This document shows, piece by piece, positions 1 to 14,487 of a stretch of 64,000 bases of DNA. Below the pieces are notes generated by a model, which made no database searches, had not been told where the DNA came from, and was given only the letters and a program-made list of their open reading frames with translations. The position numbers were made by a program, and so were the translations under genes. Positions within the stretch are counted from its first letter, which is position 1. Each line of letters begins with the position of its first letter. The DNA is from Acidicapsa ligni (lineage in GTDB: Bacteria; Acidobacteriota; Terriglobia; Terriglobales; Acidobacteriaceae), in NCBI RefSeq assembly GCF_025685655.1, contig NZ_JAGSYG010000003.1:806001-870000 (forward strand). Reading direction: 5' to 3'.

Positions 1-1287
1 CTGACGGCGGAAAATCTGCGACTGTTTGCGCCGGTGGGTGCGGCTGCGGGACTGGCGGCGGCGTTCAACGCTCCGATCACGGCGCTGCTGTTTGTGATTG
101 AAGAGGTTGTCGGGAACTGGAATGCGTCGGTACTGGGGTCGATTGTGCTGGCGGCGATCTCGGGGGATGCGGTTTCGCGGTGGTATTTTGGCGATGCGCC
201 GCTATTTCGGATTCCGGAACTGGAGTTGCGCGATCCGCGCGAGTTGGGCGCTTACGCGATTCTCGGCGTGGCGGGCGGGCTGGCATCGTGGCTGTTTGCG
301 AGTGCGTTGCGGCAGTTGCGGCCGAGGCTGGCGGCTCTGCCGCATTGGACGCGGCTGATTCAGCCTCCGTTGGCGGGCCTGGCGATTGGGCTGATCGGAT
401 ATCTCGGTTTTCCCCAGGTGCTGGGCGTGGGGTACGAGACGATCAACCAGGCGGCTGGCGGAGGGATGGCCTGGAAGCTGTTGTTTGCGCTGGCGATTTT
501 GAAGATGCTGGCGACAACTCTAGGCTTTTCATCCGGAACACCAGGCGGCATGTTTGCTCCGACTTTGTTTATCGGAGCCATGCTGGGGACGGGCATCGGA
601 ACTCTGCAACAGATGTGGCTGCCGCACCTGACGGGGCCGATTGCGTCCTACACGATGGCGGGGATGGGTGTGCTGTTTGCGGCGTTCTTGCGGGCTCCGC
701 TGACGAGCGTGTTTATGGTGCTGGAGGTGAGCGGGAACTACTCCATTGTGGCGCCGGTGATTCTGGCGAATACGGTGGCCTACCTAATTGCTCGCAAGCT
801 CGATCCGGTGCCGATCTTTGAGGTGTTCACCAAGCAGGAGGGGCTGGATCTGCCCTCGATGGAAGAGATGCGCGAGGAGGAACGGCTGCGCGTGGAGGAT
901 GCGCTGGGGAAGCCAATGGTGCCGATTTTGCCCGCCAGATTACCGATCGGTGCGGCGATGGTGAAAGCGGAGCATGAGGTGGCGGTGATCGTCCAGTTTG
1001 AGAATGGAAGCGGTTATGCGTTGACACCGAAGGAGTTAGGGGAGATTGGGTCATCGTTTGCACCCGAAACGGATGTGGGCAGCGTGGTGGCGGCTCGTAC
1101 TGAGGAGCGGCTGCCGGTGATCTATCCCGATATGTCTCTGGAGGTTACGCTACATCACTTTGGCCGGTGGCCGGCGTTGCTGGTACGCAATCGGGCACGG
1201 GCGACGGAGGCGGTGGGCGTGTTGACCGAGGCGGAGGTGCTGGGATGTTTTCGCGGGGCGCACACGCATTATGAGAAGAAGTCGTAA
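1..1287 (+). CDS. ClC-family chloride channel/transporter, 5'-truncated by window edge
   Basis: The frame is open from the first base, so the true start lies upstream. The visible 428 residues begin in a ClC core motif (GAAAGLAAAFNAPI, then IEE), followed by several hydrophobic helices and the later pore segment GGMFAPTLFIGA. The family's GSGIP and GREGP (gating Glu) motifs would lie before the window. From about residue 290 a soluble tail follows whose last part (VGSVVAARTEERLPVI ... VGVLTEAEVLGCF) looks like CBS-type regulatory sequence. Family members move chloride across the inner membrane as channels or Cl-/H+ exchangers; which applies cannot be told without the gating Glu. It is followed by about 200 bases without a recognisable gene. 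Confidence 0.93.
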   Translation: MTAENLRLFAPVGAAAGLAAAFNAPITALLFVIEEVVGNWNASVLGSIVLAAISGDAVSRWYFGDAPLFRIPELELRDPRELGAYAILGVAGGLASWLFASALRQLRPRLAALPHWTRLIQPPLAGLAIGLIGYLGFPQVLGVGYETINQAAGGGMAWKLLFALAILKMLATTLGFSSGTPGGMFAPTLFIGAMLGTGIGTLQQMWLPHLTGPIASYTMAGMGVLFAAFLRAPLTSVFMVLEVSGNYSIVAPVILANTVAYLIARKLDPVPIFEVFTKQEGLDLPSMEEMREEERLRVEDALGKPMVPILPARLPIGAAMVKAEHEVAVIVQFENGSGYALTPKELGEIGSSFAPETDVGSVVAARTEERLPVIYPDMSLEVTLHHFGRWPALLVRNRARATEAVGVLTEAEVLGCFRGAHTHYEKKS

Positions 1288-1489
1288 CGAGCGGGATTTG
1301 GGGCTAATCTAAAAGCAGACCTTATTCGTCTATCAAGTGGGTAGTGCGAGCAGCTCTGATAGTTACTAAAGAAATGGATCATTGCGATGCCAGTCTCAAA
1401 TTTATTGAACTCTTACTCTTTGATCGTTGCCGCGTCCACTAAAATTGGGAGTCATTCCCATAATTTCAAGGTGTGCCAGTAGGGGTTGA

Positions 1490-2485
1490 ATGCCTGTTGA
1501 GACGTTGATCGCCCAAGCAGAGATCGAAGGTTTACCTGCTTCGGAAATTTCCGTTCGTGATCGAATTGTTGCGCATATTCGGATAGCGCGGCTGGATCAT
1601 AGCGTAAAGCAAATTTTCATTCTTCCGGGAATCGTGCTGGCAATGGCGTTGACTGGTGAGCGGCTGAGCCTGGCGCTGACCGGAAAGATTGTTCTCGGGC
1701 TGGTGGCGGCTACGCTGATTGCGTGCAGCAACTATGTCATCAACGAGATTTTGGACGCGCCGTGCGACCGGCTGCATCCGACCAAGAAATATCGTCCGGC
1801 GGCCTGTGGGCTGGTGCATATCGGCTGGGGTTATGCGCAGTGGATTGGGATGATGCTGGTTGGGCTGGCGCTGGCGAGTACGATTTCCCTCGGATTTTTG
1901 TATAGTGCCGCCGCGCTGTGGGTGATGGGATGTGTATATAACATTCCGCCGGTGCGCAGTAAAGACCTGCCTTATATCGACGTTCTGAGTGAGTCGATCA
2001 ATAATCCACTGCGATTTTGCCTGGGGTGGTACATTGTGGCCTCGATGTTGCTGCCGCCGCTTTCGCTGCTGCTTTCTTACTGGATGCTGGGGGCTTATTT
2101 CATGGCTCTGAAGCGGTTCAGCGAGTACAGGCAGATTGGCGATGGAGCCGTGGCTGCCAGTTATCGCAAGTCTTTTCATTACTATCGGGAAGAATCGCTG
2201 CTGAATTCAGTGGTGTTTTACGCGGCGACTTCGATGCTGTTCTTTGGCGCGTTCATCATGCGATACCGGATGGAATTGATCCTGGCGTTTCCGCTGGTGG
2301 CGTGGCTGATGGCGGTGTATTTCGGGCTTTCCTTTCATAACGAAAGCGCGGTGCAAAACCCGGAGAAGCTGTACCGGGAGCCTAAGCTGATGATTGCGCT
2401 AGGGCTGTGCATTTGTGCTTTTGTGGTGCTGTTGTTTGTGGACCTGCCGTGGATTGGCAATGCTTTTCCAAAGTCATTGCCGTAA
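1490..2485 (+). CDS. UbiA-family prenyltransferase (decaprenyl-phosphate phosphoribosyltransferase-like)
   Basis: A 331-residue polytopic membrane protein. The first Asp-rich motif is NEILDAPCD (residues 85-93), followed by RLHPTKKYRPAACG; the HPTK..RP signature is characteristic of the branch containing 5-phosphoribosyl-1-pyrophosphate:decaprenyl-phosphate transferases. The second conserved loop is YNIPPVRSKDLPYIDVLSES near residues 150-170. The second residue of the first motif is Glu instead of the usual Asp. UbiA enzymes transfer a prenyl or prenyl-phosphate group in the inner membrane using Mg-pyrophosphate chemistry. The substrate is not determined by sequence; a role in polyprenyl-linked sugar metabolism is an inference. 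It is followed on the same strand by another membrane protein after about 200 bases. Confidence 0.85.
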   Translation: MPVETLIAQAEIEGLPASEISVRDRIVAHIRIARLDHSVKQIFILPGIVLAMALTGERLSLALTGKIVLGLVAATLIACSNYVINEILDAPCDRLHPTKKYRPAACGLVHIGWGYAQWIGMMLVGLALASTISLGFLYSAAALWVMGCVYNIPPVRSKDLPYIDVLSESINNPLRFCLGWYIVASMLLPPLSLLLSYWMLGAYFMALKRFSEYRQIGDGAVAASYRKSFHYYREESLLNSVVFYAATSMLFFGAFIMRYRMELILAFPLVAWLMAVYFGLSFHNESAVQNPEKLYREPKLMIALGLCICAFVVLLFVDLPWIGNAFPKSLP

Positions 2486-2680
2486 GAGTCTGAAATACGG
2501 GTCGGTGCGCGGAACTGTATCCGGAAAAATTCCAAAAATGGAATTCTGAATACGATAGACTGAGGTTACGGAAATTGTTTGAACGAGTTATTGGATGGGC
2601 AGTTCTGTGACCCAGTGCATGTTGAACCCAACCTCGACTCACGATCTTCGATTATCCCCAATCTTTTCAAGAGAGTGTCT

Positions 2681-4225
2681 ATGAAAGTTAGCCCAAGCGG
2701 GCGCTTGCCCATCCTGCGTCTGGGCGCCTTGACGATAGCGGCTCTTGGTATCCACGGGTACCACCTGGGAGTAGAAGACGGCGAGATTTATATTCCGGCG
2801 GCTCGAAAGCTGCTGGACCCGACACTTTATCCTTTCGGAACCGAGTTTTTCCTTTCGCATGGGCGGTTATCGCTTTTTAGCCCCATTCTTGCGTGGACGG
2901 CGCGGCTAACCCACCTTTCGATGGACTGGACGGTGCTGGCCTGGTACGTGGTTTGCCTATTCGCCATGCTGAGCTCATGCTGGCTGCTGGCTGCGGCTTG
3001 TTTTTCTTCGGAGAGGGCGCGTTGGAGCGGGATGCTGATCATGACGGCGGTGCTTTCGATGCCGGCGGCTAACACTTCCCTGCTGCTGGTCGATCCGTAC
3101 CTGACGGCGCGATCGCTTTCGACGCCGCTGACGCTGTTTGTGCTGGCGAGTTTTCTGGAGCGCAAGTATGTTCGCGCGGCTGTTGGGGCGGTACTGACGG
3201 CGACTATTCATCCGCAGATGGTGGTCTATGTGCTGTTTTTGACGGCGGTGATCTGGCTGGTGGATCGCAGCAAGACGGCGGTGCGGGAGCGTGTTCCGGT
3301 GCTGGCTTCGGCGGCGTCTGCCGGGGTGTTGCCGAGCGATTTCCGGTTGGCTCCGGCGACGGGGCCTTACCGCGAGGCGCTGTATTCGAGAGACTATTTT
3401 TTCCTGAGTAACTGGTCCTGGTATCACTGGGCAGGGCTGCTGGCTCCGCTGGCTATTCTGGCGTGGTTCTGGAAGGGAAATCTGCGGGGAGAGCCACTTC
3501 GGGGAACGAAGGTGGGATTTCAGAAGCTGAGCTTTGCGCTGATTCCTTTTGGACTGCTGTCGATTGCGGCTGGGCTGGTTTTCTCTTCTTCTCATGAGCT
3601 GGATATGTTTGCCCGGTTGCAACCGCTGCGCTCATTTCACCTGATCACCATTGTCTTTGTGCTGCTGCTTGGCGGGGTGGTTGGCGAGTACCTGGGCAAA
3701 GGGCGTCCGTGGGCTGTGGCGGGTATCTCGATTGGACTGGCGGCGCTGATGTTTGTGGTGGCGCGGGATACGTATCCGAGCAGTCCGCAGGTGGAGCTGC
3801 CTTCGAATACCAGTTCAAATGGATGGGCGAACGCGTTGTTGTGGGTGCGGCAGAATACGCCGACGGACGCGGTGTTTGCTGTGGATTCGCGCTACTTCAA
3901 GGACGAAGGCACGGATGTGCATGGCTTCCGCGCGGTGTCGGAGCGTTCGGCACTGGCAGACTACTTCAAGGATGGCGGGGTGGTTGCGCTGTTTCCCGAC
4001 CTGGCGACGGAGTGGAAGCAGATGAGCAATGCCACCTATGGGCTGAACCACTTTTCCGCGGCGGACTTTGGCCGGTTGCAGCAGGAGTATCCGGTGGTTT
4101 CATGGACGGTGGTTCATGGTGCGGCCCCGGTGGGGTTGGACTGCCCGTATCAGCAGCGGGGCTATGCGGTTTGCCGGTTGCAGCGGTTGACTGCTTCGGC
4201 GACTCCGATCGCTGGCGTACTTTGA
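2681..4225 (+). CDS. Polytopic membrane protein of unknown function with C-terminal soluble domain
   Basis: I chose the ATG at 2681, preceded by AAGAGAG, over an in-frame TTG at 2579 that would add 34 non-hydrophobic residues. The protein has about 514 residues. Roughly ten hydrophobic stretches fill the first 390 residues, and a soluble C-terminal part contains NALLWVRQNTPTDAVFAVD and HGFRAVSERSALADY. The early GVEDGEIYIPAARKLLDP segment in a periplasmic loop position and the helix count recall GT-C-type glycosyltransferase-like membrane proteins, but I see no clear catalytic DxD or ExD motif. It sits between the UbiA-type prenyltransferase and a signalling pair, all on the same strand. No function is assigned. 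Confidence 0.75.
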   Translation: MKVSPSGRLPILRLGALTIAALGIHGYHLGVEDGEIYIPAARKLLDPTLYPFGTEFFLSHGRLSLFSPILAWTARLTHLSMDWTVLAWYVVCLFAMLSSCWLLAAACFSSERARWSGMLIMTAVLSMPAANTSLLLVDPYLTARSLSTPLTLFVLASFLERKYVRAAVGAVLTATIHPQMVVYVLFLTAVIWLVDRSKTAVRERVPVLASAASAGVLPSDFRLAPATGPYREALYSRDYFFLSNWSWYHWAGLLAPLAILAWFWKGNLRGEPLRGTKVGFQKLSFALIPFGLLSIAAGLVFSSSHELDMFARLQPLRSFHLITIVFVLLLGGVVGEYLGKGRPWAVAGISIGLAALMFVVARDTYPSSPQVELPSNTSSNGWANALLWVRQNTPTDAVFAVDSRYFKDEGTDVHGFRAVSERSALADYFKDGGVVALFPDLATEWKQMSNATYGLNHFSAADFGRLQQEYPVVSWTVVHGAAPVGLDCPYQQRGYAVCRLQRLTASATPIAGVL

Positions 4226-4328
4226 ACTATGCCGGAAGCAGGATGCCGGATTGCGCTGCTTGGCGATTTGAGCCCTTTGCTCCAAAATGGTCAGAGTATC
4301 TGTTAAAGACTTTCGGAGTTCTCTGCCC

Positions 4329-5780
4329 ATGTTGAACTTGACGCAGCGCCTCACGCTGGGATGTACGCTGCTGGTGGCGCTTTCGCTGACGCTGGCAGTG
4401 TGGGTGCATCGAGAGCTTGCGCCGATTGGAGCGGCGGCCGGGCATACGACGAAGAGCCTGCTGATCCTGTGGACGCTTTCGGGATGCGCGATCCTGGTGG
4501 CGGTGGGGACGCTGCTGCTGGTTCTGCTGCCTATTCAGCGGCTTTCCAAAGACATTCGAAGAATTGCTTCGGGCGATCTGGCGCATCGGACGGAGTGGGG
4601 CCGCCAGGGGACGGGTGGCGACAGTTTTGGGGTGATTGCCAACGAGATGAACCGGCTGGCGGTGCGGCTGCGGGAGCTGCGCGAGACGGAGGCCGGGCGG
4701 CGGCAGATGGAATTTCAACTGTCGGATGCGGTGCTGCAGTCGATCTTCGAACCGATCATTGTTACCGACAGCAAGGGACATGTGTTGAAGCTGAACCAGT
4801 CGGCTGCCGAGGTACTGGGGGCGGGCGCGACGGACAGGATGGCGTTGATCAACCTGGCGAATACTCCGGGGGGCGACAGGATTCTGGATGCGATACGAAA
4901 TGCTGTGTCGATGCAGAAGGCGGTGGCGACGGAGGATGAGGCTGCGCTGCTGCCGATGCGGATTGGCGAGCATGAGCGCAGTTACCGGCTGAGGACGACG
5001 CCGATGCGCGATTCCGAGGGAAGATTGCTGGGGGCGGTGACGACGCTGGAAGATGTGACTTCGCTGCAGGATACGGACCGGTTCAAGACGCAGTTTATCG
5101 CCGTGGCTTCGCAGAAGTTGCGCGATCCGCTGTTGCAGTTGCGGCGCGGGCTGTATGCGCTGGGGATGGGGTTTGCGGGTGAGTTGCGGCCGTTGCAGAC
5201 GGAGCTGGTGGCTTCGGCGGGGCAGGAAGCGCAGAAGCTGGATGATCTGATGGCCGACCTGATCGAGGTGGCGGAGTTGGACTCCGGCAAGCGCGAGCCG
5301 CAGTTGGAGAAGCTGCGGCCTTATGCGTTGCTCGTCGATGCGCGCAACCAGGTGGCAGATGAGGCGAGCCATAAGGGCATTCGGCTGGAGATCAAGGCTT
5401 TTGCGGATCTTTCGCATATCCAGGCGGATCGGCGCGCGGTGAGGACGATTCTGTATAACCTGTTGAGCAATGCTCTGCGCTACACTCCGGAGGGCGGCGA
5501 GGTTGTGCTGGAGGCTGAGGAACGGAAGAAGTTCATCCAGTTCACGGTTCGAGATACGGGCAAAGGCATTGCGACGGAGCGGCTGAGCACCATATTCGAC
5601 CGCTTCAGTGCGTTATCCGATAGTGGAACGGGGCTTGGCCTGGCGCTGGTACGACGGCTGGTGGAGTCGCTGGATGGACAGATTTCAGTTGAGAGCCGGT
5701 TGGGGCATGGTGCGACATTTCGGTTCACCTTGCCGGTGGCCGCGCTGGAACTTGGGCACCATCCGGTTGAGGTGGGCTAA
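4329..5780 (+). CDS. Histidine-kinase-like sensor (HAMP-PAS-HisKA-HATPase) lacking the phospho-acceptor His
   Basis: The ATG at 4329 has GGAG 10 bases upstream; an in-frame ATG at 4287 would add 14 residues. It has two transmembrane segments with a short periplasmic loop, a HAMP region (LPIQRLSKDIRRIASGDLAHR), a PAS domain (FEPIIVTDSKGHVLKLN), a HisKA dimerisation helix and a HATPase domain with N-box (ILYNLLSNALRYTP), G1 (VRDTGKGI) and G2 (GTGLGLALV). The H-box reads FIAVASQKLRDPL where kinases have SHELRTPL: codon CAG at 5112-5114 encodes Gln in place of the phosphorylated His. The ATP site looks intact. The next gene, 3 bases downstream, encodes a KdpD-type sensor domain, so the two probably work together. 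It could be a pseudokinase, or a phosphatase/allosteric partner. Confidence 0.9.
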   Translation: MLNLTQRLTLGCTLLVALSLTLAVWVHRELAPIGAAAGHTTKSLLILWTLSGCAILVAVGTLLLVLLPIQRLSKDIRRIASGDLAHRTEWGRQGTGGDSFGVIANEMNRLAVRLRELRETEAGRRQMEFQLSDAVLQSIFEPIIVTDSKGHVLKLNQSAAEVLGAGATDRMALINLANTPGGDRILDAIRNAVSMQKAVATEDEAALLPMRIGEHERSYRLRTTPMRDSEGRLLGAVTTLEDVTSLQDTDRFKTQFIAVASQKLRDPLLQLRRGLYALGMGFAGELRPLQTELVASAGQEAQKLDDLMADLIEVAELDSGKREPQLEKLRPYALLVDARNQVADEASHKGIRLEIKAFADLSHIQADRRAVRTILYNLLSNALRYTPEGGEVVLEAEERKKFIQFTVRDTGKGIATERLSTIFDRFSALSDSGTGLGLALVRRLVESLDGQISVESRLGHGATFRFTLPVAALELGHHPVEVG

Positions 5781-5783
5781 ACG

Positions 5784-6920
5784 ATGGCAGAGTTGAAGCT
5801 CGACCGTTCGACGGAATCGGCAGAACCGGCCAAGCTGCGCATCTACATCGGTGCGGCTCCTGGAGTGGGCAAGACCTATCACATGCTCAACGATGCGCAC
5901 CTGTTACGAGAGCAGGGTGCCGACGTGGTTGTGGGGCTGGTGGAGACGCATGGACGCGCGGAGACAGAGGCGCAGATTCGCGACCTGGAAATTGTGCCCC
6001 TGAAGCAGATTCCTTATCGCTCCGTTGAGTTGAAGGAGATGGATGTCGAGGCGATTTTGGCGCGGCATCCGCATACGGTTGTGGTGGATGAGCTGGCCCA
6101 CACGAATGTGCCGGGGAGCAAGAATCGAAAGCGGTACGAGGATGTTCTAGACCTGCTGGATGCGGGCATCAACGTGTTGACGGCGGTAAATATCCAGCAC
6201 CTGGAGACGCTGAACGATGCGGTTACTCGTTCTGCGAACACGACGATTCGCGAGACGGTGCCCGATAGCATCGTGAAGCGCGCGGACGAAGTGGTGAACG
6301 TCGACGTGACGGTGGATGAGCTGCGGCTGCGGTTGCGGCAGGGCAAGATCTATTCCCCGGAGAAGATTGAGCAATCGCTGGCGAACTTCTTTCGCAAGGG
6401 CAACCTGAATATGCTACGCGAACTGGCGCTGCGGACGACGGCGGAGCAGGTTGGTTCGCAGGCGGCACAGTACAGGCGGAACCAGGGGTTGGAGCAGGCT
6501 CCGATACCGGAGAAGGTAATGGTGTGCCTGTCGACGCGGCCTGGGACGGAGAAGCTGGTGCGCGTGGGTGCGCGTGTGGCTGGGCGACTGGCTACGAACT
6601 GGTTCGCGGTGAATGTCAGCGGGCCGGATGAGTATGAGGGGCACGATGATCCGGAGGCATTTCAGCGCTTGCAGGAATATCAGCGCATGGCGCGGGATCT
6701 TGGTGCGCAGGTGGTCACGCTGCGGGACAAGAATGTTGCCGATGCGCTGATTCGGTTTGCACAGCAGGAGAGCATTTCGCATGTGGTGTTTGGGCAGTCG
6801 GTGCGCTCGCGATGGGAGATTCTATTGCGCGGATCGGTGCTGAATCGCTTTCTTGCCGAGGTGCGGGATATTACGGTGCAGGTGGTTCCAGTGCAGAAGA
6901 TACAACGCAGGGATAAGTAG
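5784..6920 (+). CDS. KdpD N-terminal sensor domain plus universal-stress domain, without kinase domain
   Basis: 378 residues. The KdpD sensor domain has Walker A GAAPGVGKT (23-31), the family signature VVVDELAHTNVPGS (100-113) and KRYEDVLDLLDAGI. A Usp-like nucleotide-binding domain follows (about 240-370; VMVCLSTRPGTEKLVRVGAR ... HVVFGQS). Full-length KdpD continues with four transmembrane helices, a GAF-like domain and a histidine kinase core; none of these is present and the frame ends cleanly at 6920. The start overlaps the upstream signalling gene's Shine-Dalgarno context (GAGGTGGG) with a 3-base gap, indicating translational coupling. In KdpD this region senses K+ or ATP and, in some species, c-di-AMP. 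No kdpABC or kdpE is in the window, so a potassium role is inferred only. Confidence 0.92.
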   Translation: MAELKLDRSTESAEPAKLRIYIGAAPGVGKTYHMLNDAHLLREQGADVVVGLVETHGRAETEAQIRDLEIVPLKQIPYRSVELKEMDVEAILARHPHTVVVDELAHTNVPGSKNRKRYEDVLDLLDAGINVLTAVNIQHLETLNDAVTRSANTTIRETVPDSIVKRADEVVNVDVTVDELRLRLRQGKIYSPEKIEQSLANFFRKGNLNMLRELALRTTAEQVGSQAAQYRRNQGLEQAPIPEKVMVCLSTRPGTEKLVRVGARVAGRLATNWFAVNVSGPDEYEGHDDPEAFQRLQEYQRMARDLGAQVVTLRDKNVADALIRFAQQESISHVVFGQSVRSRWEILLRGSVLNRFLAEVRDITVQVVPVQKIQRRDK

Positions 6921-7240
6921 AGTTAGCTGTCCTATCTAACTTGATCGTTTCTCTACCCGATAAGTAACATTCGTTCAGTAACTAAAGGTTGGACAAGTAA
7001 CCAAAGCAACTATAAGTTCATAACATAAATTCAAATAAAAATAGTTATACAAATACCGATCACGAGCAATCCGAAATCGGCATCATAGCGTACATTGAAT
7101 GGGATTCAATCAAGCTGACTGAACGACAATTCTCAAGATAAAGAGCGAAGCTTCGTATGGACCGACTCAACTATCTTCCCCCTCTGGATAGCCACAGCCG
7201 CAAGGTTAAGTCCCCCATATAAATCCATTGGAGGAACGTG
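6921..7240. other. Intergenic region, AT-rich, upstream of ferritin-like gene
   Basis: About 320 bases without a gene. It is clearly more AT-rich than the flanking genes. A short inverted repeat (AGTTAG ... CTAACT, 6921-6941) follows the KdpD-type gene and may be a weak terminator. Three copies of AGTAAC lie at 6963, 6977 and 6996. I see no RNA gene. Confidence 0.5.
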
Positions 7241-8155
7241 ATGAAAGCGATCAGGACAGATGAAGATGTACAGCGTGAACTGCTGAAGCGTCGGCAGTTT
7301 CTGACCACGGCAGGCGGAGCGGGAGTTGCAGCGGCGGCAGCGTTTCTGTTGCCGGGGAAAGCCAACGCGGTAGCTCCAGCGCAACTGGACAATACTTCAG
7401 GGGACACGGCTGAGCAGATTTTGACAGCGGCTTTGATTGCTGAGGATCTGGCCACTGTTTTTTACTACAACGGTCTGAGGGGAATGGTGATTGAGGATCC
7501 AAGCCTGGCAGGACCGGGAGGAACGGCGAATAAGATTTCGTCGACCGGCAATGCGGGGAACGTGAGCTACCTCAAGGCTGCACTGATCGAGGAAGGAACG
7601 CACGCTACTTTGTTCAGGAATTTGCTGAACAGCAATGTCCCCTCAAGCGATCCGTATCAGACGTTTTATTTTCCGACCGGCACATTCGATACTCTTGGGG
7701 CGTTTACATCGATGCTGAATGCATTGGAAGATGCTTTCATCGGAGCATATCTGGCGGCAACGCTGGAATTTGCGCAGATGGCGACTGACAGCCGGGCCAA
7801 TGGCGTACGTCAGCCCCGGGCAACGGGCGGCTATTATGGGGCGCACGAACTGCAGTGGTTTTCGCAGGTATGTGCATCCATCCTGGGAGTGGAGGCGGAG
7901 CATCGCGTTCTGGGCCGCGATCTTTCGAATACGGTTCCTCCGAACCAGTATGTCTATGAGCAGACGGACGGAATCGCGACTGTATTCAATGGAAGCGCTT
8001 CTGCAGTGGCAGCATTGACGCCGTTCCTGGCGGCAGGGTCGGGGCTTACGGCTTACTCGCTGCATGATGCTGTATCGGGTTCGCAATCGTACAAGATTGC
8101 GATTTCGGGAACAGCATTGCCGCCGCAACCTCCGGCGCGTGGTGACGGGCAGTAA
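7241..8155 (+). CDS. Tat-exported ferritin-like domain protein
   Basis: GGAGG lies six bases before the ATG at 7241 (a GTG sits one codon earlier). The N-terminus KRRQFLTTAGGAGVAAAAAF, ending in ANA, is a typical twin-arginine signal peptide, so the folded protein is exported. The mature part shows paired helices with carboxylate/His signatures: AEDLATVFYYN, IEEGTHATLF, LEDAFIGAYL and VEAEHRVLGRDL, giving the E...ExxH...E...ExxH pattern of four-helix di-iron proteins. It resembles the ferritin-like family related to plant desiccation-associated PCC13-62 proteins. Enzymatic function is unknown; periplasmic oxidative or desiccation protection is an inference. A strong terminator follows, so it is probably monocistronic. 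Confidence 0.88.
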   Translation: MKAIRTDEDVQRELLKRRQFLTTAGGAGVAAAAAFLLPGKANAVAPAQLDNTSGDTAEQILTAALIAEDLATVFYYNGLRGMVIEDPSLAGPGGTANKISSTGNAGNVSYLKAALIEEGTHATLFRNLLNSNVPSSDPYQTFYFPTGTFDTLGAFTSMLNALEDAFIGAYLAATLEFAQMATDSRANGVRQPRATGGYYGAHELQWFSQVCASILGVEAEHRVLGRDLSNTVPPNQYVYEQTDGIATVFNGSASAVAALTPFLAAGSGLTAYSLHDAVSGSQSYKIAISGTALPPQPPARGDGQ

Positions 8156-8205
8156 GGACGGACAGTAAGAACGGGCAAATTAGAGAAACACTCGGTTGAT
8201 TTTTA

Positions 8206-8239
8206 TGCGGTGAGCGCTATTGGCGTTCACCGCATTTTT
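8206..8239 (+). terminator. Rho-independent terminator after ferritin-like gene
   Basis: TGCGGTGA (8206-8213) pairs with TCACCGCA (8227-8234), with additional GCG/CGC pairing in between, followed by TTTTT. The T-run is only downstream on the plus strand, so it serves the gene ending at 8155. Confidence 0.85.
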
Positions 8240-8275
8240 GGTTTCAGGAACAGATCCGTGGTCGACAAATAAGGC

Positions 8276-11200
8276 TCAGGGAACCATGAGCGGACGTAGC
8301 GGGTGCTGGTCGTCGACCTGGAAAAGGCCGGTGGGTCCGGCGACTGTTGAAGGCTGGGAGCGGAAGAGATAGCGAATGGAGAAGCCTGCTCCGACGCTGG
8401 TGTAGTCGCGGGAGTTGTTCGCTCCTGCGAAGCCGCCTACGAACCAGTGATCGCTGATGCCATAGGCTACCTGGCCGCGCAAATCGTAGTTGGAGCCTAC
8501 GCTGGTTTTGGCGGCGAGGAATGGGTTGTTCTGAGAGACCTCGATGGACTTATCGAGCGGATAGAGGGCCACTGAATCCTGCTGGAATGCCTGAATACCG
8601 ATGCTACCGAGGATGGTGTAGTGCCAGCGGGTCAGGTAGTGGCCGGTCCACGTCAGAGGCACGTTGGCGAGGAAGTATGCCTGGGGACTGAAGTATCCTC
8701 CCATGCCGTAGGTGAAGGCCTGGACGTTGTTGCTGTAGTGCATGGCGAAGAAGTTACCGCCGATATTGAGGGTGCCGTATTCGGGGTTGGCATAGACGCG
8801 CCAGTATGCACCCATGGAGCCGTCGAAACGCGTGTTGTTCTGAACGTGAAAGCCGGTGATGTACTGGCCGCCTGCGCCTACATAAAAGCCGGAGGATAGG
8901 TCGCCGCGCGCGTATTGCACGTTGCCCTGGTTGGCGATTACTCCGCCCCAGACGTTGCCGGGGAAGAAGGCGGAGGCGGAGCCAGGATCGCGCAAACCTG
9001 CGTAGGAGAGCTGCGTGTCTTTGATGGAGTCACGATTGAAGATGAAGGTGAATGGGCCGCCGCCGGGACGCCAGTTGGCGCGACCGGTGAAGTTTCGGAC
9101 GAGAAAGCCCTGGGGAGTGATTCCGGCTGCGAGAGCGAGGTTGCCGAGGGAGAGTTGGCCTTCGGCGGCAAGACCGGCTGCATTCTGCTGTGCGGGCGGT
9201 GTGGCGGTGGCTACGGCTCCGCTTTCGGTGCCGAATGGCTCAGGACCGGCGCCGGAGGTAAGTTGGATCACGGCGGTGCCGTCGGCCTGGCCTGAGTCCA
9301 GAAATACGGGCTTGGCGATGATGGTTAAGCGGGCCTTGGTGCTGAGCGGGACGGATGCTTCAAATGGAGCTTCGAGAGCGGTCAGAGACTCGTAACCGAG
9401 GACGCCGGTGCGGTGGTTGATGATTCCGGTACCGCCCAGCCAGGCGCTGTAGCCACCCTCGATGGTGCGGAGCTGCGTTTCTGCTTCTTCGCGGGGGCTG
9501 ATGATCTTTGGCTCGCGGGCAGTGCGAACCCAGGGGCCGCGCAGGGGAGGCAGATTGCGATTTTGGAGTTCCTGATCGGAGAGGCCGGTCGTCGTCGTGG
9601 GCTGGCTCGCTGGGAGTTGGCCGTCGGTGATCGACTGTTGGGGAGCTGGGGTTTCGCCCGGAGCTGTGACCAGGGTGGGCACGGACTGGGTGGTGGCTGG
9701 TTTTGCCCTGCGGCGTCGGCGGACGGGTTTGGCATTCTGCGAAGAGTTCAGCGAAGGAAGCGGTTTTGCGGGTTGCTGGATTGCCGGTTGTACGGGCTGA
9801 GGGGCTGTTGGTTGCTGGCCCTGCTTCTGAGCGGAGTAGGCTCCGGCGGCTGCGTCCTGTGCGGATGGCGTGTATTGGGCGTTACTGTAAGCGGCGTTTG
9901 GAGATGAGATTTGCTGCAGGGCGTTCAGTCCGTCGGGGCCGGTTGTTGCGTTCGAGAGATAACGGATCGAAAGGCCCTGGGTGAGTTGGCCATCGGTCTG
10001 GTCGGCCAGCATGGCTTGCGCACGTGCTGCAGTGGGGTTCATGGGCTGCGAGGTGATGCGCAGATTGGGCTGGGTATTTTGGGGCTGCGTGGATGGTTGA
10101 TAGTTTTGCGGGACTAGATAGGGCTGCACTGGTTGCGATGGGCGTTGGGGTAGGGAATAGGTTGGGGTTGGGGCTTGAATTGGAGCGGGGGTGATGGGAT
10201 TGGCAGCGGGCGGGTGCATGCGTCCGGAGTAGTTGGTGGCGCTGGCTGCGCTCTTTTTATGGGTGGGTGAGGCTTGCTGGGTGCTGGGCTGCGAACTGGC
10301 GTTGCCGGACGGGATAGTGTCGGAGGCGGGCAGCGGTGTGGTGGTCGTGGTGGGAACAGCGTAGACCGGCGTGGTGCCGGGGGTCTGGTTTGGGGTCTGC
10401 TGAGTCAGTACGACGGGGGCTGAGCCATCATAGGGATCGCGGCCGTAGCTGGGTAGCGGGGGCAGGTCCCTGGCGCCACGCGGCGTGGGTTCTTCGTCTG
10501 GATTGAGCAGGTGAGCGAGGTCGCGCGGGGTGGCGGCGTGGGGGCTGGACTTTTCCTGCTCGGGGTTGACGAGTTCGTGGGCCAGCTTGTCGGTGGGCGA
10601 GACCTGGGGCATGACGGCGAGCGAGGCGCGCCAGTAGTCGGCGGCTCGGGCGTTATCTCCGCGGGCCTGTTCGAAACGGGCTGCGAGGCCGAGGATGGCG
10701 GGGTCGCGGGGAAAGCGATCGAGGGCCTGACGGAGCCAGATTTCGGCCTGAGCTTTATCGCTGGCCGCGAGGGCTGAGCCGATGGCTCCCTGGAAGTCAC
10801 CGGCGCTGGCGTTCTGCATGTCGATCTCTTTGAAGATGGCGAGCGCTTCCCTGCTTTTGCCTGCGGTGAGATAACCTCCGGCGACGGCTTTGCGGACGGT
10901 GAGATTATCGGGAAAGGCTTGCGCTGCGGCGTCGAGGATATCGATGGCGCGGGCGGTGTTGCCTGCGGCGAAGGCGGTAGCTGAGCGGCGGACGCTCCAG
11001 TTAGCCCATAGGCCCTGGATGGTTTCGCGCTGGGCGGTGGTGAGGTCCTGGCGAGCGCCGAGATTCATGAGGGCCGGATAGAGGGCGCGATCGTTTTTGG
11101 TGTTGTAGAGGAGGTAGGCGCTCTGGATATCTACGTCGGCGGGAGGCTGTTGATGCAGGGTAGCGTAGTGCTTCTGAATGCGGTTGAAGAGGGCAAAGGA

Positions 11201-13318
11201 GTTCACGGTGTCTCCGGCGGCAGCGTAGAGGCTGGCTTCACTCTGCTCGAACTGGACATCGGCTTCGAGTTGCTTGCGCACGGCGGGGGGGATGAGCTGG
11301 ATTTGCTGGAGGGCCTCGGTGTTGCGATTGGTGACTTGCAGGGTGCCGATCAGGCCGCGCCAGGCGTCGAGGTTGTCGGGATGGGTTTGCAATATCTGGC
11401 GATAGAGGCCGTAGGCTTGCGCTGTGTTGTTGCGCAAAAGGTAGATTGAGGCCAACTGAATCTGGAGCGAGAGCGAGGGCTGTCCGCTGGACTGCATTTG
11501 AATTTTGGCGGAACGTTCGAGCAGACCCTGGGCTATCTCGAATTGGTTCGACTGTTGATACATGGAACCGAGCATGGAAAGGAAGCCGGGATCGGAGAGC
11601 GAGGCTTCATAGGTGGCCGGCGGCATCTTTTCTACGAGGTCGATGGCGTCGCGGTCCTGACCGAGTTGGTGGTCGGCGGTGACGAGGCCCATCCATGCGG
11701 GAAGGCTGTCGGTGCCGTCGTTGAGGATCTGCTTGTAGAGTTCGGCGGCCTGGTCATAGCGTTTGGCGGCCATTAGAATGCCTGCGTACTGGAGGCGGGT
11801 GCCGGTTTTGAGGTTGGCTCCGTTGTCGGGGAATGGCAGGGCTAGGGCCTGGGCGAGGACGCGCTGCGCGTCGGCGTCGCGACCGTCGGCCTGATAGATG
11901 ACGGCCAGGGTGCGGAGGAAATCCGGATCGCGATTGAGGGCGGTTTTAACCCGAACGGGAAAGCGGGCCATTACGGTGAGCGCCTGCGTGTTTTGATTGG
12001 CGCGGGCGTAACCGAGGAAGAGTCCGCGCCATGCATCGGTGGAGGCAGGTTGAATTTTCAGGATCTGCTGATAGACACCGATGGCTTCAGGGAACTGTTC
12101 ATTTTTGGTGTAGACGCCGGCGAGACCGTTGAGTGCTTCGGGGCTGCGCGGGCGCATGGTCAGGGCTTCTTTGTACTTGTCGGCAGCGGCATCGAGCTGG
12201 TTGGCGTCGAAGGCGGCTGAGGCTTCGCCCATGGTGAACCAGAAGCGGGAGGTGGCAAGACCCTCGACGACGGAGCGGTCACGGAAGCCATTCTGCTCGG
12301 CCTGGACGAGGTAGCTGATGGCTCCGCCGAAGTTGCTTTGCTGCATGCGGAGGAAGCCCATGCCTGCGGCGGCTCGGGCGTCCTTTTCGTTGGCGTCGAG
12401 CATGACTTTGAAGCGAGCTTCGGCGTCCTGCAGGTGATGGGCGTTCAATGCGGCGAAGGCAGCTCTCTCGGCGGGAGTGCGGGCGATGCCTGAGTTCATC
12501 TCGGCCAGCTTACCTTCGTTTTCCTTGAGGCGGGATTCGAGCTCGGAATCCTTGGGGTGAGTGCGGAGGTATTCGCGCAGCTCAGCGGCGGAGGTGGGGT
12601 TGGCGGAGTCCCAGATGAGGGCCTGGCGCAGCGAGTTTTGCGCATCGGAATCTTCGGCGTGTTCATGAAGAATCCTGATGCCTTCGGCGCGGGTGCGTGG
12701 ATCGTAGGTGAGCATGCGGCCGAGGGTGACGATGAAGCGCGGGTCTCCGGGATTGCGGGCGGCGGCGGCGCGCATGGCATTGAGCGCCTCGGTTTTACCG
12801 CTGGGCGTGGCGTAGAGGGTTTCGTAATAGGCGAGGGCGATGTCGCCGTCGGGGGGATGATCTCCGTAATACTCGCGGTAGATCTTCATGGCTGCGTCAG
12901 GGTTGCCGGCTTTGGCGTAGGAGCCAGCCTGACTGAGACGTTGATCGCGGGTCTTGTCGCTGGTGAGGCCTTGAATTCTGCCGATGTTGGGATCGCTGGG
13001 GTTGATACGGCGCAGTTTGTCGAGTGCCTGGTCGGAGGCGCTGGAGTTGCCGCTGAGGCGATAGTCGCGGGCTACGCCTTCAAGGGCCAGGGCGTTGTTG
13101 GGATCGGAAAGGAGAATCTGCTGCCAGACCTGGACGGCGATGTCGGGACGTCCGCGAGCCTCCAGAGCCTTGGCCTTGTCGATCAGGGTCTTTTCTGCGT
13201 CGCTCTCCTTTTGCGCCTGGACCGTGATGGCCGGGAGGCACATGCTGAGAGCAATTGCGGAAAGAAATATCCAACTCCAACCGTTTTGGGGCTTTTTACT
13301 CGTCATTCGCGCGTCCAT
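8276..13318 (-). CDS. bcsC: Cellulose synthase outer-membrane/TPR subunit BcsC
   Basis: About 1,680 residues, much longer than the roughly 1,150 of E. coli BcsC. A signal peptide (WSWIFLSAIALSMCLPA ... VQAQ) precedes TPR repeats spanning about residues 40-920. A Pro/Gln/Thr-rich, presumably disordered linker covers about 920-1280 and contains the basic patch RRRRRAK. The C-terminal BCSC domain (about 1280-1680; EGGYSAWLGGTGIINHRTG, GGYFSPQAYF) forms the outer-membrane beta-barrel that exports the glucan. The stop of bcsZ overlaps the start: ATG at 13306 gives an ATGA overlap, while ATG at 13318 adds four residues; either is possible. It is the last gene of the minus-strand cellulose operon. 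Confidence 0.95.
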   Translation of the reverse strand: MDARMTSKKPQNGWSWIFLSAIALSMCLPAITVQAQKESDAEKTLIDKAKALEARGRPDIAVQVWQQILLSDPNNALALEGVARDYRLSGNSSASDQALDKLRRINPSDPNIGRIQGLTSDKTRDQRLSQAGSYAKAGNPDAAMKIYREYYGDHPPDGDIALAYYETLYATPSGKTEALNAMRAAAARNPGDPRFIVTLGRMLTYDPRTRAEGIRILHEHAEDSDAQNSLRQALIWDSANPTSAAELREYLRTHPKDSELESRLKENEGKLAEMNSGIARTPAERAAFAALNAHHLQDAEARFKVMLDANEKDARAAAGMGFLRMQQSNFGGAISYLVQAEQNGFRDRSVVEGLATSRFWFTMGEASAAFDANQLDAAADKYKEALTMRPRSPEALNGLAGVYTKNEQFPEAIGVYQQILKIQPASTDAWRGLFLGYARANQNTQALTVMARFPVRVKTALNRDPDFLRTLAVIYQADGRDADAQRVLAQALALPFPDNGANLKTGTRLQYAGILMAAKRYDQAAELYKQILNDGTDSLPAWMGLVTADHQLGQDRDAIDLVEKMPPATYEASLSDPGFLSMLGSMYQQSNQFEIAQGLLERSAKIQMQSSGQPSLSLQIQLASIYLLRNNTAQAYGLYRQILQTHPDNLDAWRGLIGTLQVTNRNTEALQQIQLIPPAVRKQLEADVQFEQSEASLYAAAGDTVNSFALFNRIQKHYATLHQQPPADVDIQSAYLLYNTKNDRALYPALMNLGARQDLTTAQRETIQGLWANWSVRRSATAFAAGNTARAIDILDAAAQAFPDNLTVRKAVAGGYLTAGKSREALAIFKEIDMQNASAGDFQGAIGSALAASDKAQAEIWLRQALDRFPRDPAILGLAARFEQARGDNARAADYWRASLAVMPQVSPTDKLAHELVNPEQEKSSPHAATPRDLAHLLNPDEEPTPRGARDLPPLPSYGRDPYDGSAPVVLTQQTPNQTPGTTPVYAVPTTTTTPLPASDTIPSGNASSQPSTQQASPTHKKSAASATNYSGRMHPPAANPITPAPIQAPTPTYSLPQRPSQPVQPYLVPQNYQPSTQPQNTQPNLRITSQPMNPTAARAQAMLADQTDGQLTQGLSIRYLSNATTGPDGLNALQQISSPNAAYSNAQYTPSAQDAAAGAYSAQKQGQQPTAPQPVQPAIQQPAKPLPSLNSSQNAKPVRRRRRAKPATTQSVPTLVTAPGETPAPQQSITDGQLPASQPTTTTGLSDQELQNRNLPPLRGPWVRTAREPKIISPREEAETQLRTIEGGYSAWLGGTGIINHRTGVLGYESLTALEAPFEASVPLSTKARLTIIAKPVFLDSGQADGTAVIQLTSGAGPEPFGTESGAVATATPPAQQNAAGLAAEGQLSLGNLALAAGITPQGFLVRNFTGRANWRPGGGPFTFIFNRDSIKDTQLSYAGLRDPGSASAFFPGNVWGGVIANQGNVQYARGDLSSGFYVGAGGQYITGFHVQNNTRFDGSMGAYWRVYANPEYGTLNIGGNFFAMHYSNNVQAFTYGMGGYFSPQAYFLANVPLTWTGHYLTRWHYTILGSIGIQAFQQDSVALYPLDKSIEVSQNNPFLAAKTSVGSNYDLRGQVAYGISDHWFVGGFAGANNSRDYTSVGAGFSIRYLFRSQPSTVAGPTGLFQVDDQHPLRPLMVP

Positions 13319-14487
13319 CGTACTAACAGTTCTCCGCTGCTTCCAAACTGAAAGCGCTTCTCCATCCAGCCGGTGGCGAAGAGAGCTAGATTCTGATCGT
13401 AATATGCAGGGCCAGATCCGTAACCTGCGCCGTACAGATTTGATTTTTCATCGAGTTGCGATTTGAAGCGCACCAACTGTTGGGCAAGTGCGGGCTGGCT
13501 TGAAAGGCTCTGCAAATAGGGCAACAGAGCGGCAGAAAATCCGACCGGGCCGTCCTGTCCGAGAGGTATGCCCTGATTGCTGATCTTCTCGGGCGGTGCA
13601 GTGTGGTTTTGGAGATAGGTGTTCATGCCGGGCAGTGCGTTCAGAATGCGGGCTTTGGCGGGGCTGGAATCGGCGAGCATTCCTGCCCAGAGATAGACGC
13701 GGATAGCGTCATAGCTGCCGGTAGCCTGTGGGCCAGTGTGGTTATTGGCGAGCGAGGGAGTGAAGCCGCTGCCGGGTGTGTAGCTGACCCAGTCCATGGC
13801 AAAGCCGTTACGGGCGCTGCGTTCGAGGAGGGTGGGAATCTCGGCGGCTACGTCGGCGAATTGGCTTGCCGGATCTGCTTTCGCGAGGCGATCGAGGAGG
13901 AATACAGGGGTATAGCTGGGATTCAGTACCCATGCTTTGGGAAACTTGAAGTTGACGGCTGCGGGCAGCAGCGCGGGGCCAAAGCCGGGAAGGTTGGCTA
14001 CTTCGCGATGGCTGATGAGGGTGGCGAGCTTGCGGCCTAGCGAGAAGTAGTGTGGATCTTTCCAGAGGCGGCCGGCTTCGACGAGATCGTAGGCGATCCA
14101 GAGATCGGAGTCGGAGGCTGAGTTGGGATCGAGGATGCCCCACTCGCCATCTTTGGCGCGGCCCCATGTCCATGCGGGGAGATGGGTGGCGATGTCCCCG
14201 GCGGCGAGGTTGCTTTGCGTCCACTCGAATACTTTGTCGAAGCGGGCTCGGTCGTCGTTGACGAGAGCAAAGAAGAGCGCGTAGCTCTGACCTTCGGAGG
14301 TGGTGCGGTCTTCGCCCTGGGGATCGATGACGCGTCCGTCGGCGCTGATGAAGTGGCTGCAGTAGGCCTGCCAGAGTTTGGCATGGTCGGAATTCTGGGC
14401 GCGGGCCGGGGCGGTAGCGACTCCTAGCACCGCCAGCAAGCTTCCAATTCCGATCATGAGGGAGATCCTTCGTTTCAGTTGCAGCAT
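13303..14487 (-). CDS. bcsZ: Periplasmic endo-1,4-beta-glucanase BcsZ (GH8)
   Basis: The start at 14487 overlaps the stop of bcsAB in a TAATG arrangement; an upstream in-frame extension (to 14634) lies wholly inside bcsAB and is not used. The signal peptide is LKRRISLMIGIGSLLAVLGV ending in APARA. The GH8 signature TTSEGQSYALFFALVNDD near residue 65 carries the catalytic acid Glu, and DSDLWIAYDLVEAG and SYDAIRVYLWAGM are further family segments, the latter with the catalytic-base Asp region. BcsZ trims cellulose in the periplasm and is normally needed for efficient secretion. 394 residues is close to the usual length. Its stop overlaps the bcsC start. Confidence 0.95.
   Translation of the reverse strand: MLQLKRRISLMIGIGSLLAVLGVATAPARAQNSDHAKLWQAYCSHFISADGRVIDPQGEDRTTSEGQSYALFFALVNDDRARFDKVFEWTQSNLAAGDIATHLPAWTWGRAKDGEWGILDPNSASDSDLWIAYDLVEAGRLWKDPHYFSLGRKLATLISHREVANLPGFGPALLPAAVNFKFPKAWVLNPSYTPVFLLDRLAKADPASQFADVAAEIPTLLERSARNGFAMDWVSYTPGSGFTPSLANNHTGPQATGSYDAIRVYLWAGMLADSSPAKARILNALPGMNTYLQNHTAPPEKISNQGIPLGQDGPVGFSAALLPYLQSLSSQPALAQQLVRFKSQLDEKSNLYGAGYGSGPAYYDQNLALFATGWMEKRFQFGSSGELLVRWTRE

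Follow-up and report, generated by a model that had tools for sequence, protein, structure and literature searches.

A pseudo-histidine kinase encoded beside a predicted KdpD-N serine kinase in Acidicapsa ligni and related genomes

The window analysed here is a 64,000-nt stretch of the Acidicapsa ligni genome (assembly GCF_025685655.1, contig NZ_JAGSYG010000003.1, positions 806,001 to 870,000 of the forward strand), and all positions are counted from its first nucleotide. It contains two genes on one strand, with 3 nt between the stop of the first and the start of the second. Gene 1 encodes a protein with the layout of a membrane-bound sensor histidine kinase, in which Gln occupies the position of the phosphoacceptor His (the pseudokinase), and gene 2 encodes a KdpD protein with no histidine-kinase part (KdpD-N). 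The same arrangement recurs, with the pseudokinase intact, in many Acidobacteriaceae from soil. Our comparison with relatives indicates that the pseudokinase is functional, and we lean slightly toward the view that it is a retired histidine kinase kept as an ATP-binding membrane regulator of a KdpD-N serine kinase.

Gene 1 has an alternative start, an in-frame ATG upstream at 4287, which would give a protein of 497 aa. By hydropathy, the loop between the two transmembrane helices has only 22 residues; six longer relatives that were checked have approximately 150-180 residues there, a segment that is missing from the window protein. A 4HB_MCP_1 match in longer relatives was over the cut-off in locus L208 and below it in L210 and L211. 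An AlphaFold2 model built with 47 family sequences had the standard sensor-kinase fold (mean predicted local distance difference test score, pLDDT, 72; predicted template modelling score, pTM, 0.45), with the DHp helices at residues 244-279 and 288-319, and in a Foldseek search with this model the top match was a WalK model, with DivL (4q20) following at rank 7. The model is of middling quality and was used for fold recognition only, its domain packing not being trusted; the predicted structure confirms the sensor-kinase fold and nothing more.

The phosphoacceptor position was compared in an orthologue set of 183 frames, which reduced to 105 distinct sequences over the last 350 residues (matches below 140 bits were dropped, and L001, L002, L113, L122, L221 and L239 were left out before duplicates were removed). 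The 105 comprise 90 members of the pseudokinase family, L196 and 14 more distant kinases. None of the 90 has His at this position: the residue is Arg in 58, Gln in 15, Ser in 4, Lys and Glu in 3 each, Ala, Asp and Gly in 2 each, and Asn in 1. L196, with Gln at the site, is a separate lineage, and His is present in the 14 more distant kinases. A tblastn count over 112 loci, redundant between collections, aligned a residue in 105 (Arg in 77, Gln in 14, Lys in 4, Ala and Ser in 3 each, Glu and Asp in 2 each); a single His beyond these came from L113, a 113th locus that holds an unrelated KdpD C-terminal half, and 8 loci had no aligned residue. An earlier note on this DNA had read CAG as Gln in place of the phosphoacceptor His, which is confirmed, and had looked to conserved Gln and conserved adjacency of the two genes as signs of a functional pseudokinase. 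The adjacency held in every locus compared (see below), whereas the Gln did not: with nine different residues, the constraint at the acceptor site is "anything but His".

The remainder of the protein is conserved. Positions D367, N377, N381, D409, G411, G413, I414 and G437 of the ATP site are invariant in 90/90, and the ATP domain, described earlier as intact-looking, was borne out by its Pfam match. The ratio of nonsynonymous to synonymous substitution rates (dN/dS) was 0.12 and 0.10 for the window pseudokinase against its two closest relatives, the two pairs to which the estimate is limited, since the remaining pairs were saturated or near-saturated at synonymous sites. The family has no conserved His inside its DHp domain; columns with at least 50% His (residues 27, 86, 151, 460 and 478) all lie outside it, and another residue as the acceptor was rejected on this ground. 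A sequencing error or pseudogene is likewise ruled out by the agreement of many genomes and by purifying selection, and the genome-specific error at 5112-5114 that had been allowed for is not the explanation, many separately sequenced genomes lacking the His. From these comparisons, the loss of His is real and old and is tolerated at this site alone, with the acceptor site drifting while the rest of the protein is under strong selection. These results indicate that gene 1 encodes a functional pseudokinase, which has probably retained ATP binding.

HisKA phosphatase activity needs an acidic residue at H+1 and Thr or Asn at H+4. In the family, Lys (88/90, the window included) or Arg (2/90) replaces Glu at H+1, and among the residues listed for the 90 sequences H+4 is Asp in 67 (the window included), Gly in 7, Thr and Asn in 5 each, Glu in 4 and Gln in 1. 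Because the residues at both positions are mostly lost, the phosphatase role suggested in the earlier note is unsupported, and a canonical one is unlikely.

Gene 2 is predicted to encode an enzyme of another kind. Silberberg et al. 2024 describe the E. coli KdpD-N as an atypical serine kinase that phosphorylates S162 of KdpB and thereby inhibits the potassium pump, using Walker A, D109 and E110 of Walker B, and W39 and R190 (PMC11018627). The gene 2 product matched the Pfam KdpD domain at 305.9 bits, over the cut-off, and carries only this and the Usp domain, as had been noted. It had also been called a KdpD fragment with no kinase. That description did not hold: the Walker A, Walker B and Arg residues, numbered by alignment to E. 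coli KdpD, are kept in 88/88 close orthologues, and at the position of W39 all 88 have an aromatic residue (Tyr in 70, Phe in 16 and Trp in 2; Tyr in the window). The TGES target motif is present in the KdpB of the window's genome. KdpD-N here thus has the residues that this atypical serine kinase uses for catalysis, and it is predicted to be such a kinase.

Table 1. Positions of the pseudokinase and KdpD-N genes and of their parts in the window
Feature	Position	Strand	Details
Gene 1, pseudo-histidine kinase, 483 aa	4329..5780	+	Two transmembrane helices, HAMP, PAS, DHp, CA
Two transmembrane helices (residues 8-26, 49-67)	4350..4529	+	Predicted, hydropathy
HAMP	4521..4676	+	Pfam PF00672, 24.6 bits, under cut-off of 25
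PAS	4743..5066	+	PF08448 (PAS_4), 38.8 bits, over cut-off
DHp (HisKA) helices without phosphoacceptor	5085..5288	+	PF00512, 20.8 bits, under cut-off of 26.9
CAG, Gln 262, phosphoacceptor His position	5112..5114	+	H-box FIAVASQKLRDPL
CA (HATPase_c)	5427..5741	+	N, G1 and G2 boxes intact; PF02518, 96.3 bits, over cut-off
Conserved C-terminal tail HPVEVG	5760..5777	+	
Gene 2, KdpD-N, 378 aa	5784..6920	+	KdpD and Usp domains, no histidine-kinase part; predicted atypical serine kinase
Walker A, G-X5-GKT (residues 23-31)	5850..5876	+	GKT in 88/88 close orthologues
Walker B, D102 E103 (E. coli D109 E110)	6087..6092	+	88/88
Arg 183 (E. coli R190, adenine contact)	6330..6332	+	88/88
Usp	6510..6860	+	PF00582, 32.9 bits, over cut-off

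Our order-wide survey covered 200 genomes of the order and took at least 580 bits as the mark of a close KdpD-N homologue (the next score down was 303). Close KdpD-N and the pseudokinase occurred in the same 48/200 genomes and were adjacent by coordinates in 48/48; contig ends interrupt the pseudokinase of G144, the last part of which lies beside KdpD-N (L163), and that of G179 is truncated by the start of its contig. Cultured soil species with the pair include Acidicapsa dinghuensis (L036) and Terracidiphilus gabretensis (L096). In the 45 loci of at least 12 kb that were compared (44 relatives and the window), KdpD-N (position 0) is preceded on the same strand by the pseudokinase (position -1) in 45/45. 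The pair therefore behaves as a unit. KdpD-N of either kind follows the pump: both KdpD-N and kdpA were found in 175 of the 200 genomes and neither in 19, with 4 + 2 discordant (Fisher 1e-20, phylogeny not corrected). The pair-bearing genomes have kdpA in 47/48, and G056, a genus-2 genome, is without kdpA, KdpD-N and pseudokinase alike.

The kdp genes themselves lie elsewhere. As the earlier note had observed, no regulator or kdp gene adjoins the pair; there was no receiver match in window positions 1-14000 and no kdp gene among the scanned neighbours. The KdpE-like regulator and kdpABC of this genome, which has one KdpD-N match and one kdpA, are on another contig, C7, where a DUF4118-HisKA-HATPase kinase (KdpD-C) with an intact His in its H-box (THELRTPL) faces kdpE-kdpA-kdpB-kdpC. 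This KdpD-C has a HisKA match over the cut-off, a DUF4118 match and no HAMP match; the pseudokinase lacks the four-helix DUF4118 domain and instead has two transmembrane helices, HAMP and PAS. The true C-terminal half of KdpD is therefore a separate gene, and the idea that the two window genes are KdpD cut in two was abandoned. Of the kdp loci from pair-bearing genomes (n=23), 20 have a detected KdpD-C, with His in 20/20, and neither KdpD-C nor KdpE was seen in L175 and L181. No KdpD-N lies beside kdpA in 22/22 of these loci with visible flanks, L172 being cut by the contig.

A distant KdpD-N, approximately 41% identical, was inspected in 10 genomes; in 9 of these it is part of the kdp cluster, with KdpD-C on one side and kdpE or kdpA on the other (L153 has no kdp genes visible, and L157 no kdpE match). 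Pair-bearing genomes mostly lack a second KdpD-N, which is present in at most 2/48 (G179, which has the operon type too, and G096, with a weaker match). The pair thus seems to take the place of the KdpD-N encoded in the operon.

Relatives of the pseudokinase form a series in which an ordinary two-component sensor is retained although its regulator and histidine are lost. The f22 kinases have His (SHELRTPL) and lie in the order kdpABC-KdpD-N-kinase-regulator in L210, L279, L280, L282 and L283; L284 has the same order with partial kdp, and L211 has kdpABC-kinase-regulator-KdpD-N. The L210 regulator has a receiver domain and no further Pfam match at E 0.001. In f11 and f88 (L208, L209, L241 and L242) the order is kdpA-kdpB-kdpC-pseudokinase-KdpD-N, and Ser, Asn or Gly stands in place of His; in f71, where KdpD-N precedes the pseudokinase, the residue is Gln, Gln and Ala in L213, L277 and L278. 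Receiver-domain genes, counted from matches with E up to 1e-5, adjoin the kinase in 15/15 mapped loci with His (directly downstream in 11 and preceding it in L215, L216, L218 and L219) and in 0/8 loci without His (f11, f88 and f71). The nearest match is 1.4 to 8 kb off in L208, L209, L241, L242 and L278, KdpE genes included; L213, L277 and L281 (short contig) have no receiver match, and the 45/45 window-type loci have none in the whole locus. The earlier note had allowed that close relatives might carry His at this position; such relatives occurred only outside the family, in acidobacterial kinases with an adjoining receiver-domain gene. As judged from these loci and sequences, the window pseudokinase descends from a different kdp-linked kinase and not from KdpD.

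The tree favours two losses of His over one. The main tree (44 rows picked by hand, H-box columns excluded) needs two changes of state; a single loss was recovered in 6% of 200 bootstrap trees, although an approximately unbiased (AU) test did not reject it (p 0.09). Two changes were also needed in a faster tree built from 59 of the 105 sequences, the rest being more than 85% identical or too short. By these criteria f71 is probably a separate pseudokinase lineage. Decay of the ATP site in f71 affects the N and G2 boxes and has gone furthest in L247 and L248. In the window's family, by contrast, the main positions do not vary, suggesting that ATP binding is important there.

On the reading that we prefer, the pair would form a regulatory module of the Kdp potassium pump that is not linked to the kdp operon. 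Gene 2 would encode a free N-terminal half of KdpD, a serine kinase braking the pump via the TGES serine of KdpB, and gene 1 a former kdp-operon histidine kinase that has lost its phosphoacceptor and adjoining response regulator. The periplasmic domain would have been lost in the window's clade, with the HAMP, PAS, dimerisation and ATP-binding parts kept. The pseudokinase would then be a membrane-bound, ATP- and PAS-responsive allosteric partner of the serine kinase (activator, inhibitor or anchor), with the HAMP and PAS domains and the ATP state of CA, in place of a phosphoryl relay, carrying signals to KdpD-N, and transcription of kdpABC would be left to the separate KdpD-C/KdpE pair on the other contig. 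We infer the physical interaction, the control and its direction, the signal and KdpB as the target in this organism from sequence and gene order. No diadenylate cyclase match was found in the window's genome, so that cyclic di-AMP (c-di-AMP), which stimulates a short Deinococcus KdpD (PMC11018627), is probably not the input here; the cyclase occurs in 1/48 pair-bearing genomes (G179) as against 41/131 with distant KdpD-N alone. More tentatively, at somewhat less than an even chance, a whole histidine-kinase scaffold may have become a subunit dedicated to sensing ATP and controlling a serine kinase allosterically, the sensor having been kept, once response regulator and phosphoacceptor were gone, to gate a post-translational Kdp brake; the second, probably separate loss of His beside KdpD-N in f71 suggests that such a demotion can happen repeatedly.

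Several observations weigh against the regulator reading. G057 (L243) has the pair and no kdpA was found in its 99% complete assembly, so a target other than KdpB is possible. E. coli W39 is Tyr or Phe in 86/88 close KdpD-N orthologues. Of the 131 genomes with distant KdpD-N only, 90 have neither diadenylate cyclase nor such a pseudokinase; missing c-di-AMP alone therefore does not require a pseudokinase. f71 keeps its KdpD-N neighbour despite decaying ATP-site motifs, which shows that an ATP-binding partner is not needed everywhere. The gene pairing itself could reflect co-expression alone.

Among the alternatives, the one that survives best, although we consider it unlikely, places the pseudokinase on the transcription side, docking KdpE~P or another phosphorylated regulator and relaying to KdpD-N or KdpD-C. 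The retained DHp fold and the rank of DivL in the fold search fit this idea, and DivL, described as neither kinase nor phosphatase, binds DivK~P (PMC4211667). However, no kinase without His in the mapped loci has an adjoining receiver-domain gene, and the invariant main ATP-site residues here contrast with the weak ATP binding of DivL. Next, and also improbable, the pseudokinase may be a passive membrane anchor for a soluble KdpD-N, its ATP binding merely structural; KdpD-N consists of KdpD and Usp domains only, and the loop between the transmembrane helices is short. A passive anchor, however, would have no use for an invariant ATP site or for PAS and HAMP; in f71, by contrast, the ATP site decays.

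A third possibility, to which we give little credence, is a heterodimer with an active histidine kinase, KdpD-C or another, to which the pseudokinase would lend its ATP domain or which it would tune. An intact ATP domain beside a lost acceptor side is what such a partner might show, and RocA with CovS (PMC7028121) and a ChrS pseudokinase with HrrS (PMC9491836) are precedents; but KdpD-C differs in architecture and occurs also in genomes without the pseudokinase, and f71, also without His, loses its ATP site while KdpD-N stays adjacent. That gene 1 is a relict under decay or a sequencing error is hardly credible: the variety of residues at the His site reveals no constraint beyond the exclusion of His, but separately sequenced genomes agree, dN/dS is close to 0.1, the ATP site is invariant and the open frames are long.

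The C-terminal tail HPVEVG of the pseudokinase looked like a docking peptide. Its last three codons overlap a Shine-Dalgarno-like stretch for gene 2 (GAGGTGG), whereas the codons for H and P vary synonymously. An ending [VI]-E-x-G was found in 85 sequences, and HPVEVG was not seen in the four kdp-linked pseudokinases or the four His-bearing kinases whose tails were inspected. Given the synonymous variation at H and P, a ribosome site only partly explains its conservation.

Several other genes surround the pair. Upstream, a gene at 2579-4225 (+) encodes a protein of unknown function with a DUF6798 match below the cut-off; a homologue is near the pair in 31/45 loci, the window included, and in 27 of these 31 it lies at -2 on the same strand. 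The commonest family near the pair, beyond the pair itself, is a membrane protein (31/45 loci, the window included). Downstream, the gene at 7238-8155 (+) encodes a Ferritin_2 domain protein whose leader resembles a secretion signal by eye, and 8276-14634 (-) holds genes for a 1680-aa BcsC-like cellulose synthase operon protein C and a 443-aa family 8 glycosyl hydrolase, which probably belong to a cellulose synthesis cluster.

We found no paper on the pseudokinase/KdpD-N pair in the part of open-licence PubMed Central that was compared by title or start of abstract. According to Silberberg et al. 2024, control of the KdpD-N serine kinase remains to be further characterised (PMC11018627). The pseudokinase is a natural candidate for its regulator, encoded beside it in 48/200 genomes, and makes a question testable: is a live serine kinase controlled by a dead histidine kinase?

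The closest known system is the split KdpD of Acidobacteriota, a phylum mentioned once in the main text of PMC11018627, in which the word pseudokinase is absent. There, one chain holds the KdpD/Usp serine kinase and another the transmembrane, GAF and DHp-CA parts of a histidine kinase (PMC11018627). As in that system, KdpD-N here is a chain of its own, and KdpD-C with its His lies beside kdpE-kdpABC; unlike it, the window KdpD-N is encoded away from the kdp genes and has an extra partner gene, that of the HAMP-PAS pseudokinase. The short KdpD of Deinococcus geothermalis likewise has KdpD and Usp domains only (PMC11018627), but it is a serine kinase regulated by c-di-AMP, whereas here no diadenylate cyclase was matched and a membrane pseudokinase gene is adjacent. 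The Walker A, Walker B and Arg residues kept here are those named for E. coli in the same paper. The best match of gene 2 in NCBIfam is NF038185 (KdpD_non_kinase, "KdpD-like non-kinase potassium sensor"), at 428.9 bits, short of the 550 that its cut-off requires; despite the "non-kinase" of the family name, the serine-kinase residues are present in gene 2.

Among pseudo-histidine kinases, Caulobacter DivL (PMC4211667) resembles the gene 1 product in its PAS-DHp-CA order, in a phosphoacceptor position that is not His and in the predicted fold, which matched 4q20. DivL, however, binds ATP weakly and has a response regulator as partner, whereas the gene 1 product has no linked regulator gene and is encoded next to a predicted serine kinase. 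RocA (PMC7028121) and the ChrS variant (PMC9491836) are accessory pseudo-histidine kinases that modulate another signalling protein, as we propose for the window pseudokinase; RocA has a predicted His (H246), the substitution of which with Ala does not impact activity (PMC7028121). DivL, RocA and ChrS indicate that pseudo-histidine kinases can act by binding partners. Those partners are two-component proteins, histidine kinases in the cases of RocA and ChrS, and the partner proposed here would instead be a serine kinase.

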